Assembly: GCA_947448675.1 (NCBI GenBank)
Contig: CANFOR010000002.1
Span: forward strand, 1-40,091
Direction: 5' to 3'
DNA from: Betaproteobacteria bacterium
GTDB lineage: Bacteria; Pseudomonadota; Gammaproteobacteria; Burkholderiales; Burkholderiaceae_C
Length of the DNA stretch: 40,091 bases
The notes below the pieces were generated by a model. That model did no database searches and was not told where the DNA came from. It saw only the letters and a program-made list of their open reading frames with translations. Positions 1,820-23,845 of this stretch are shown here, piece after piece. The first letter of the stretch is position 1; each line of letters begins with the position of its first letter. A program made the position numbers and the translations under genes.

Positions 1820-2434
1820 ATGAAAACCTTCACATGCCCTTCCACACCGCCCTCCACACCTCCTTCGCTCGCTCTTAAAAAGATAGCTGTCTACGCATTA
1901 TTGGCGGGCGTTACCGCCGTTTTGAGTGGTTTTTTAGCACCCGCCAGCGCGCATATTGTGTTTGACAACCCTGTCGCCGTTGCGGGCAGCAATTACAAAG
2001 CGGTTTTTAGAATCGGCCACGGCTGCGGCAACTCGCCTTTGAAGCAACTTGTGGTCACTATTCCTGCCGGTGTTCAGGGTGCCAAGCCAATGCCCAAAGC
2101 CGGTTGGAACTTGGAGATCGTGCGCGAAAAGTTGGCCACGCCCTATGTCGAATATGGCCGCACGATCAGCGAAGACGTGCGCCGCATCAGCTGGACAGCC
2201 AAGAGCAAAGACGACTACTTGCTCAACGACTGGTTCGACGAGTTTGTGCTACGGGCCAAACTACCCAGCACACCCGGCATGCTGTACTGGAGCGTAGCCC
2301 AGGTTTGCGAAGAGGGCCGCATGGACTGGGCCCAGGTGCCCACGCCCGGGCAAGACCCCAAAAAGCTGAAAAGCCCCGCTGCCACCTTAGACGTGCAAGC
2401 GGCCCCCAGCGGCAGTGCCGAGCATCACCATTGA
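1820..2434 (+). CDS. YcnI-like DUF1775 copper-binding periplasmic protein
   Basis: 204 residues, starting 8 bases after the receptor stop. A signal peptide runs to about Ala44 (motif APASA), so the mature protein would begin with His45 (HIVFDNP). Known YcnI/DUF1775 proteins bind copper through such an N-terminal His together with a conserved Trp. The domain follows with the typical blocks GHGCGNSP, VTIPAGV, ISWTAKS and DWFDEFVLRA, and the C-terminus ends in EHHH. With the PCu(A)C gene directly downstream it probably takes part in periplasmic copper handling. The hydrophobic core of its signal peptide (residues 18-33) is encoded by a copy of the 48-base interspersed element at 1871-1918. The family call is confident; the exact role is not. 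Confidence 0.85.
   Translation: MKTFTCPSTPPSTPPSLALKKIAVYALLAGVTAVLSGFLAPASAHIVFDNPVAVAGSNYKAVFRIGHGCGNSPLKQLVVTIPAGVQGAKPMPKAGWNLEIVREKLATPYVEYGRTISEDVRRISWTAKSKDDYLLNDWFDEFVLRAKLPSTPGMLYWSVAQVCEEGRMDWAQVPTPGQDPKKLKSPAATLDVQAAPSGSAEHHH
1871..1918 (+). repeat. 48-base interspersed element, copy 1 (in YcnI-like gene, sense)
   Basis: Begins GCTCT, 7 A/T-rich bases, ATAGCT, then ACGCA at positions 23-27; the second hairpin GGCGG-GCGTTA-CCGCC has perfect arms and is followed by GTTTT. It is translated as ALKKIAVYALLAGVTA in the signal peptide. Confidence 0.82.
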
Positions 2435-2441
2435 GCCTTTT

Positions 2442-2993
2442 ATGAAACGATTGCTGCGCTATTTCACACCCCGCCAAGCCCAGGCGCGCACCAGCATGCG
2501 CGCGCGCAACTACGCCGTTGTTGCTTGCGCATTTTGCACAGCCCTGCTCAGTCTGCTTCTGACCACTGCGCCGCCTGCCAGCGCGGCCTTGGCACCCACG
2601 CCTGCCGCCGTGCGTGTGCAGGCCGCCTGGGCTCGCGCCAGCGTGCCGGGGCAAAGGGCCAGCGGGGCCTTTATGACGCTCACCGCCAAGGAGCCCCTCA
2701 CTTTGGTGGCAGTATCGTCCCCGATGGCGGGCGTGAGCGAAATCCACAACATGAAGATCGAAGGCGAGGTCATGAAAATGCGCCGCCTGCCACAGGGCCT
2801 GGACCTGCCCGCGGGCCAAGCCGTGCAACTCAAACCCGGCAGCGTGCACCTGATGCTGATGGACTTGAAAGCGCCTTTGCAAAAAGACGCTCACGTGCCG
2901 TTGACCCTGGTCTTTAAAGACGCGCGCAACGTGCAAAGCACGCTAGAGCTGCAAGTGCCCATTGGCCTGGCCGCGCCCACGGTCTTGGAGTAA
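2442..2993 (+). CDS. PCu(A)C-family periplasmic copper chaperone
   Basis: 183 residues from ATG 2442; the frame is open further upstream (GTG 2415), but that would overlap the previous gene. A long N-terminus with a hydrophobic signal segment (about residues 25-48, ending APPASAA) precedes a domain with the copper ligands of the family. The pattern H-x-M then a second Met about ten residues on is seen in IHNMKIEGEVMKM, and the H-x-M ligand in SVHLMLMDL. PCu(A)C proteins deliver Cu(I), for instance to the CuA site of cytochrome oxidase. The operon-like order receptor, DUF1775, PCu(A)C supports a copper acquisition or delivery path from the outer membrane to the periplasm. Confidence 0.9.
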   Translation: MKRLLRYFTPRQAQARTSMRARNYAVVACAFCTALLSLLLTTAPPASAALAPTPAAVRVQAAWARASVPGQRASGAFMTLTAKEPLTLVAVSSPMAGVSEIHNMKIEGEVMKMRRLPQGLDLPAGQAVQLKPGSVHLMLMDLKAPLQKDAHVPLTLVFKDARNVQSTLELQVPIGLAAPTVLE

Positions 2994-3025
2994 GCTGTAG
3001 GCACAAATACAGCAGGAGAAAGCGC

Positions 3026-22397: not shown

Positions 22398-22473
22398 AAG
22401 TATCTATTCAGAAATCTATTAGATTTTTGACAAAATTCGTTTATTGACAGATACTTATAAAAAAGTATCTATT
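22398..22473. promoter_or_regulatory. Palindromic promoter/operator region of the HipA-like gene
   Basis: This A/T-rich 76 bases differs sharply from its surroundings. The 11-mer AAGTATCTATT occurs twice (22398-22408 and 22463-22473). The second copy forms an inverted repeat with AGATACTT at 22449-22456 (6-base spacer). A further perfect 7-1-7 palindrome, AAATCTATTAGATTT, lies at 22412-22426. A -35 TTGACA at 22427-22432 stands 17 bases before GATACT (22450-22455), which lies inside the inverted repeat. A protein bound there would block the promoter. The gene product itself has a DNA-binding-like N-terminus, so autorepression is inferred. Confidence 0.65.
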
Positions 22474-22474
22474 A

Positions 22475-23845
22475 ATGAATGCCCCTGAACCTCCACCGCT
22501 TAGCCCACCGCCAAAGCCGCTGACCGAGGCCTCACTTGAAGGCTTGGACGCTCAGTTGCGCAACCTGCTGGCGCAGGGCGGGCCGCTGAGCGCCAAGCAA
22601 TTGGTGGCCGCCACAGGCAAAAGCCAACCCAGCATCTCGTTGGCCTTGGGCCGTTTGGGCAGCGTCGTGCACAGGCTGGGCGCGGCGCGTAGCAGCCGCT
22701 ACACGCTCACTCGCAGCATCTTGGGCTTGCCCAGCGCGCAGAACCTGCTGCGCACCAATGCCAAGGGGCGCACAGAGATTTTTGGCACGCTACAGTTTTT
22801 GCAACAAGGCGAGGTGCATGTGCGCGGCACGCAGGGCCACGAATGGCTGGGTCGGGGCGGTCTGCCTTGGTTTTTGAGCAGCCTACGGCCCCAGGGCTTT
22901 TTGGGTCGGCAGTACACCCATTTGCGTCCCGACTTCCCTAGCGACCCCGACGCATGGACAACCGAGCAGGCGCTCTACATGGCAGCCAATCACATCAGCG
23001 ACCCACCCGGTGCGTTTGCGTTGGGTGCGGGCCATAGCCAGCATGAGGGCCTGCAAGTTGACGCAGACAACATCGCCCGCTTTTACGACCACATGGCCAC
23101 GCAAGCGGGCCACAGCCTGCCAGCAGCCTCGTCTGCCGGGGGCGAGCAACCCAAGTTCACGGCGCGCGTGCAGGGCCAACATGTGATCGTTAAATTCAGC
23201 CCACTTTGCGGCACGCCCTTTGGCGAGCGTTGGCACAACCTGCTGCAGCTCGAACACTTGGCCAACCAGGTCTTGCAAGCAAACGGCATTGCCAGCGCGC
23301 CCACCGTTTTGCTGCGTAGCAAGCAGCGCACGTACCTGCAGTCCACCCGCTTTGACCGCATTGGCACGCAGGGCAAGCGCCATGTGGTCGAGCTCAGTGC
23401 GCTGCACGATGCTTTTGTGCAAACGCCAAGGCAACACTGGGTCGCCAGCTGCGAGGCTTTGGTGCAGCAAAAATTGCTCTCGCCCCAAGGCCTTGAGCGC
23501 ATCGCGCTGCAATACCTGTTTGGCCAGTACATCGGCAACACCGACATGCATTTTGGCAACCTCGCGTTCTTTGTTGACGACGTGACCAAGCCGCAGCTCG
23601 AGCCCACACCGGTGTACGACATGCTGCCCATGCAGTGGCGGCCCGGCGTGCACAGTGGCGAACTGGGCTGTGCACCCGTGCAAGCGCAACGCCAGCCAGC
23701 GGGCTACGGCGCGCTGGCCGAGCGCGCGCGCCACATCGCCACCCTGTATTGGCAGCAAGCCGCCCAGCTGCGCAGCCTGAGCAGCGCGCTGCGGGCGGCC
23801 GCGCGCAGCAATGCGCAATTGCTGGCGCGCAATTTTCAAGACTAA
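22475..23845 (+). CDS. HipA-family kinase toxin of the YjjJ type with its own N-terminal HTH
   Basis: 456 residues from ATG 22475, which has no clear ribosome site. Residues about 20-80 look like a winged helix (LRNLLAQGGPLSAKQLVAATGKSQPSISLALGRLG). The HipA-like kinase core follows: SSAGGEQPKFTA near residue 215, VIVKFSP, the catalytic loop IGNTDMHFGNLAFF with Asp357, and VYDMLPMQW with Asp382 as metal ligand. Canonical HipA pairs with a separate HipB antitoxin, but none is encoded next to it. E. coli YjjJ has the same single-gene layout with a built-in DNA-binding segment. The substrate is unknown; HipA phosphorylates glutamyl-tRNA synthetase. Confidence 0.83.
   Translation: MNAPEPPPLSPPPKPLTEASLEGLDAQLRNLLAQGGPLSAKQLVAATGKSQPSISLALGRLGSVVHRLGAARSSRYTLTRSILGLPSAQNLLRTNAKGRTEIFGTLQFLQQGEVHVRGTQGHEWLGRGGLPWFLSSLRPQGFLGRQYTHLRPDFPSDPDAWTTEQALYMAANHISDPPGAFALGAGHSQHEGLQVDADNIARFYDHMATQAGHSLPAASSAGGEQPKFTARVQGQHVIVKFSPLCGTPFGERWHNLLQLEHLANQVLQANGIASAPTVLLRSKQRTYLQSTRFDRIGTQGKRHVVELSALHDAFVQTPRQHWVASCEALVQQKLLSPQGLERIALQYLFGQYIGNTDMHFGNLAFFVDDVTKPQLEPTPVYDMLPMQWRPGVHSGELGCAPVQAQRQPAGYGALAERARHIATLYWQQAAQLRSLSSALRAAARSNAQLLARNFQD

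Follow-up and report, generated by a model that had tools for sequence, protein, structure and literature searches.

The kinase HipH (YjjJ) of E. coli K-12 is the closest described relative of the gene analysed here, and its kinase activity has been shown (PMC9948734). The family phylogeny paper of Gerdes et al. 2021 named HipH and proposed that its helix-turn-helix (HTH) binds DNA or acts as an antitoxin in cis; in its accessible sections the control of HipH without an antitoxin gene is called unknown, and no operator for HipH was found there (PMC8262856). The binding of the E. coli protein to DNA has been addressed by ChIP-exo with myc-tagged YjjJ, which gave no binding sites, a result that its authors blame on the lack of a predicted HTH (PMC8464067). 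This experiment is the sole direct test and counts against autorepression; low expression or effects of the tag are possible causes of the empty result. According to the accessible part of the Reg-Seq study, the E. coli yjjJ promoter has no activators and two repressors, both new, one site being assigned to MarA and the other standing without a factor, and YjjJ is not named in that part (PMC7567609). Genomic SELEX described a sigma-70 promoter of yjjJ, TTTTCA-18-TCTATT (PMC3946193). The literature searched, with subscription papers such as the 2017 YjjJ paper outside its scope, yielded no description of the operator box analysed here.

Gene family, predicted fold and neighbourhood

The window (the whole stretch of DNA analysed, 40,091 nucleotides) carries on its forward strand, at 22475-23845, a hipH/yjjJ-like gene that starts with the ATG at 22475 and whose product of 456 amino acids is predicted to join a winged helix to a HipA-type kinase. 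Pfam HipA_C matches the protein with 76.7 bits, and weak matches to HTH_5 and MarR_2 lie under the cut-off. In a tree in which the window protein and 18 HipH-like entries, including E. coli HipH, were set against six HipA-type kinases, the branch separating the two groups received a support of 100/100, and the gene is best read as encoding a HipH (YjjJ) kinase of clade X of the Hip tree. With 354 bits, the protein falls short of the 401-bit cut-off of the NCBIfam equivalog model for toxin YjjJ, NF007297, and is a member of the HipH clade that lies outside this equivalog model.

The AlphaFold2 model of the protein, built from 76 aligned homologues, reached a mean pLDDT of 93.5 and places a winged helix at approximately residues 18-79 (helices 18-35, 40-47 and 51-64 plus a two-strand wing, with pLDDT about 97), in which residues 51-64 form the recognition helix and which is followed by the HipA-type kinase. 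The top Foldseek matches of the model are HipA structures along their full length, including HipA-HipB-operator complexes. The kinase appears intact, since its motifs K240, NTDMHFGN (355-362) and YDMLP (381-385) are invariant or nearly so across the 76 sequences, and two serines, S219 and S220, precede its Gly-rich loop. By analogy, the window protein is a putative toxin that may inhibit growth when overproduced, an effect reported for E. coli YjjJ only (PMC9948734).

The gene is flanked upstream by a lipoyl synthase-like gene and downstream by an EamA-like transporter gene (names from sequence reading). Inspection of these flanking genes showed no hipB, hipS or HTH gene adjoining hipH, so that the locus is not a hipBA module. 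The original prediction of a HipA-like toxin resembling YjjJ, with a winged-helix-like N-terminus of its own and without a hipB partner, agrees with the tree, the model and the neighbourhood. The gap to the EamA-like gene is 12 bp and the two genes may be co-transcribed; the EamA gene was rejected as a functional partner, being absent from the neighbourhoods of the other homologues fetched. An ordinary hipBA pair exists in the window's own genome (locus L136, G000:C26, minus strand, open reading frames 1390-2670 and 2667-3017), its 116-residue Xre-like HipB overlapping its 426-residue HipA. This HipA is the sole other HipA_C protein of the genome, and the pair lies away from the window hipH.

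Elements in front of hipH and their conservation

The intergenic region preceding the window hipH measures 80 bp. It contains AAGTATCT twice on the forward strand (22398-22405 and 22463-22470) and once inverted, as AGATACTT (22449-22456, minus strand), the 7-1-7 palindrome AAATCTA-T-TAGATTT (22412-22426) and, just ahead of the ATG, the candidate promoter TTGACA-17-GATACT (22427-22455, forward strand, with TTGACA at 22427-22432 and GATACT at 22450-22455). All these elements had been listed in the original prediction and each was found in its place. Three non-overlapping copies of any 8-mer appeared in 0.14% of the dinucleotide shuffles of the region, the 8-mer and its inverse have no further occurrence in the 40-kb window, and a search of the 2.7-Mb genome for the inverted pair AGATACTT-N6-AAGTATCT with up to 3 mismatches gives a single site. 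A 7-bp palindrome was present in 16% of the shuffles and is therefore unremarkable on its own; it is probably incidental and showed no conservation in relatives. The inverted copy overlaps the -10 of the candidate promoter and is complete only in the two nearest relatives (L002 and L006). What the homologues conserve is TATCTATTNA, and because their comparison frames the unit as TATCTATTNA(T), AAGTATCT is to be seen as the left edge of this box plus flanking letters. We consequently dropped AAGTATCT as the operator core; nor do the inverted arm and the palindrome qualify as halves of an operator, neither being conserved. The kinase type, the winged helix, the missing hipB and the presence of an operator at the promoter thus stood up to the computational tests, whereas the anatomy originally given to that operator, namely its repeat unit, palindrome and inverted arm, did not.

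Upstream regions of 80 homologues, together with others taken from whole genomes, provided a motif set of 105 HipH genes, the start codons of the homologue set being chosen by rule. An unsupervised motif search run with local background recovered TATCTATTCAT with a likelihood score of 627, compared with 41-54 in three shuffled sets. Strong sites were directional (209 forward vs 20 reverse), and at least one of them was found in 81 of the 105 genes; the remaining 24 lack a strong canonical box, some of them carrying tandem repeats of their own and a few, such as L056, L035 and L039, having no visible tandem repeats. Direct repeats with a period of 12 were observed in 35 genes against 2.6 expected and those with a period of 11 in 13 against 2.2, with a slight excess at period 10 and none at the other periods between 8 and 16. 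The distance from the distal to the first proximal box ranged between 64 and 67 bp in 27 of the 37 genes having both; the window gene and E. coli K-12 hipH share a distance of exactly 65 bp. In 16 homologues, window included, a TTGACA-like hexamer stands 16 or 17 bp ahead of the last proximal box, which may therefore contain the -10.

In the window, the distal box TATCTATTCAG (22401-22411, forward strand) scores 12.6 bits against the family motif and precedes the -35; counterparts of it occur in E. coli hipH and in relatives whose neighbouring genes differ. This distal box is followed 12 bp later, in tandem register, by a weaker second distal box, AATCTATTAGA (22413-22423, forward strand, 7.9 bits), which covers the left arm of the palindrome. 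The proximal box TATCTATTAAT (22466-22476, forward strand, 12.4 bits) runs into the start codon, and the 65 bp from 22401 to 22466 on one strand amount to about six turns, with both boxes on the same face. A second candidate promoter, TTGACA-16-TATCTA (22444-22471, forward strand), has its -10 within the proximal box; the first one is kept in the nearest Rhodoferax relatives and has lost its -10 in Limnohabitans, and these two readings of the window promoter appear equally open. No Shine-Dalgarno sequence was found before the window ATG.

Relatives in Rhodoferax, Limnohabitans and Polaromonas have TATCTATYNA twice, ahead of the -35 and at the ATG, and their upstream neighbours differ, save in L002, which has a lipA-like gene too. 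Xanthomonadales have TATCTATTCA-like boxes, with a 12-bp tandem at the ATG and a distal box, and in front of E. coli K-12 hipH a distal box is joined by three boxes in tandem, AATCTATTCAAGTATCTATTCACGAATCTATTCATTAATG, the four starting at NC_000913.3 positions 4621667, 4621732, 4621744 and 4621756; once the SELEX promoter is set on the sequence, the E. coli -10 falls in the first proximal box. The same box is found in bacteria as distant as E. coli, Rhodoferax and Methylacidiphilum, and the boxes travel with the HipH gene family and not with neighbour genes. The operator would accordingly consist, judging by these comparisons, of direct repeats of the directional box TATCTATTNA, with a 12-bp tandem and, at a distance of about 65 bp, a distal copy. 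Several Xanthomonadales (L024, L025, L032, L037, L042, L044 and others) show TTGAC-17-TATCTA with about 7 nt from TATCTA to the ATG, suggesting that their hipH mRNA may be leaderless and that the proximal box may contain the -10. A plasmid-borne HipH of E. coli (L083, 2480-3784) has its own tandem boxes, and its neighbours, lysozyme and single-stranded DNA-binding protein genes, suggest that the carrier is a phage-plasmid.

Specificity of the boxes and co-variation with the recognition helix

Each of the 10 Xanthomonadales genomes contained the strong tandem (0-1 mismatch) once, and a comparison of its positions with the HipH loci placed it before HipH in every case. The blind two-box search through 401 genomes of the window's family returned four matches, all four at HipH, and the reversed pattern none; this search is specific rather than sensitive, as further genomes of the family carry HipH with other box variants. 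Across 369 genomes of the class, the strict tandem pattern gave five matches, two of them at HipH (G339 and G159) and three without HipH nearby, against eight for its reversed control. HipH is rare in the class (20 of the 369 genomes) and its boxes vary, so that with such counts the strict tandem alone makes a poor class-wide detector. Two Limnohabitans genomes hold second, divergent and unlisted HipH genes (L104, 1540-2877; L106, 1045-2379, minus strand), which were found only because matches of the operator pattern fell directly before their ATG. A tandem box, ATCTATTCAAGTATTCATTCA, also lies in Limnohabitans parvus (L105, about 2020-2040, minus strand); it is flanked by convergent genes, neither of them HipH, and may be due to chance or be the relic of a lost gene.

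The presence of the box is tied to the first residue of the recognition helix, which is Gln51 in most box-bearing HipH proteins. The box was present in 73 of the 76 genes whose protein has Gln51 and in 8 of the 29 without it (Fisher P = 1e-12), and among 57 representatives with less than 60% kinase identity the figures were 40 of 41 and 4 of 16, respectively (P = 3e-8). In these representatives, the similarity between operators correlated with that between recognition helices after removing the similarity of the kinase, of helices 1-2 and of the wing (partial r = 0.25; P = 0.003), a modest correlation in which shared ancestry is only partly controlled. None of kinase, helices 1-2 or wing correlated with operator similarity in the same set, and the stretch 220-330 bp upstream, taken as a control, yielded r = 0.004 with the recognition helix. 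Families with other helices have other repeats; in Opitutaceae, for example, the helix DRSRVSR goes with CTGTGCGT. Such co-variation of box and helix matches what a direct reading of the box by HipH would predict.

HipH genes whose recognition helices are non-Gln or unusual have different repeats: CTGTGCGTAA in Opitutaceae and other Verrucomicrobiota (L051, L054, L067, L072, L074, L075 and L078), CTAGWCATAAT in L115 and L121, CTCGACATA in L091 and AGGACA in L093. These pairs of helix and repeat form a natural series in which to look for a recognition code.

Candidate mechanism, alternatives and known systems

HipH most likely represses its own gene through the operator boxes, because these recur before its relatives in several bacterial groups and vary with the DNA-reading head of HipH; both the binding and its sign, repression, we infer from the sequence comparisons. 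The N-terminal winged helix would read the directional box TATCTATTNA, of which one copy (plus the weak tandem copy) lies upstream of the -35 and the other at the transcription start and start codon. HipH on the proximal box, possibly aided by the distal one through cooperation or looping, would block RNA polymerase, so that rising HipH would shut down its own gene and the toxic kinase would stay scarce without HipB. A conserved operator tracking the recognition helix of the toxin offers an answer, testable in E. coli K-12 at these four sites, to how HipH is kept in check without an antitoxin gene, and if true would give YjjJ, empty in ChIP-exo, a target and make HipH a candidate for the unassigned Reg-Seq repressor. 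That the operator also serves as the antitoxin of HipH, with box binding via the winged helix holding the fused kinase inactive, is rather doubtful; one chain would then be toxin, repressor and box-bound self-antidote, and the loss of operator binding would free active kinase.

The location of the distal box upstream of the -35, where activators act, and the box-like sites away from HipH such as that of Limnohabitans parvus would fit a HipH that binds the boxes as an activator or dual regulator, or that regulates further genes, instead of a simple autorepressor. We consider this unlikely, given that the proximal boxes overlap the -10, the start site and the start codon, where a bound protein would block the polymerase, that the accessible part of the Reg-Seq study reports solely repressor sites at E. 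coli yjjJ, and that, in the Xanthomonadales genomes searched, the strong tandem stands nowhere but at HipH. Quite improbable is the attribution of the boxes to another, unlinked regulator (MarA in E. coli, or a nucleoid protein) rather than to the winged helix of HipH, to which the negative ChIP-exo of YjjJ and the Reg-Seq assignment of one yjjJ site to MarA, in the part accessible, would lend weight: the box varies with the recognition helix and not with the kinase or other parts, the two-box architecture is absent from other genes in the 401 genomes, and E. coli, Rhodoferax and Methylacidiphilum share the same box.

The strong directionality of the boxes, the contact of the proximal one with the ATG and the lack of a Shine-Dalgarno sequence might also indicate that the boxes work in the mRNA, controlling translation start or the leader, and not as a DNA operator. 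Transcripts from either candidate promoter would leave out the conserved distal box, which precedes both, and a tandem spacing of 12 bp, close to one helical turn, suits binding to DNA; this makes control at the mRNA level very improbable. As to chance AT-rich repeats flanking an ordinary promoter, the intergenic region is indeed AT-rich and palindromes are as frequent in its shuffles as given above, but conservation across the 105 homologues and the shuffled and reversed controls contradict this explanation, and we regard it as extremely improbable.

The nearest counterpart of the locus is HipH/YjjJ of E. coli K-12, with an identity at the level of 35-40% to the window protein. Both are single genes without an adjoining antitoxin that encode an N-terminal HTH and a HipA-type kinase, and both have the same box upstream with the same spacing from the distal to the first proximal copy. 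They differ in that the E. coli gene has three proximal boxes in tandem after its single distal box, whereas the window gene has a single proximal box and, next to its one distal box, a weak tandem copy. The hipBST system shares a related kinase domain, HipT (Foldseek matches 8ezr and 7ab4), but consists of three genes with separate HipB and HipS. The hipBA operons of E. coli and Shewanella likewise combine a HipA-type kinase with promoter autoregulation by the DNA-binding part, as would be the case in the window; in them, however, HipB is a separate protein with an Xre-type HTH acting on palindromic operators, whereas the winged helix of the window protein is fused to the kinase and its boxes are direct repeats. 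A toxin that regulates its own gene through a fused winged helix and direct repeats would hence differ from the arrangement in which a separate HipB acts on palindromes.
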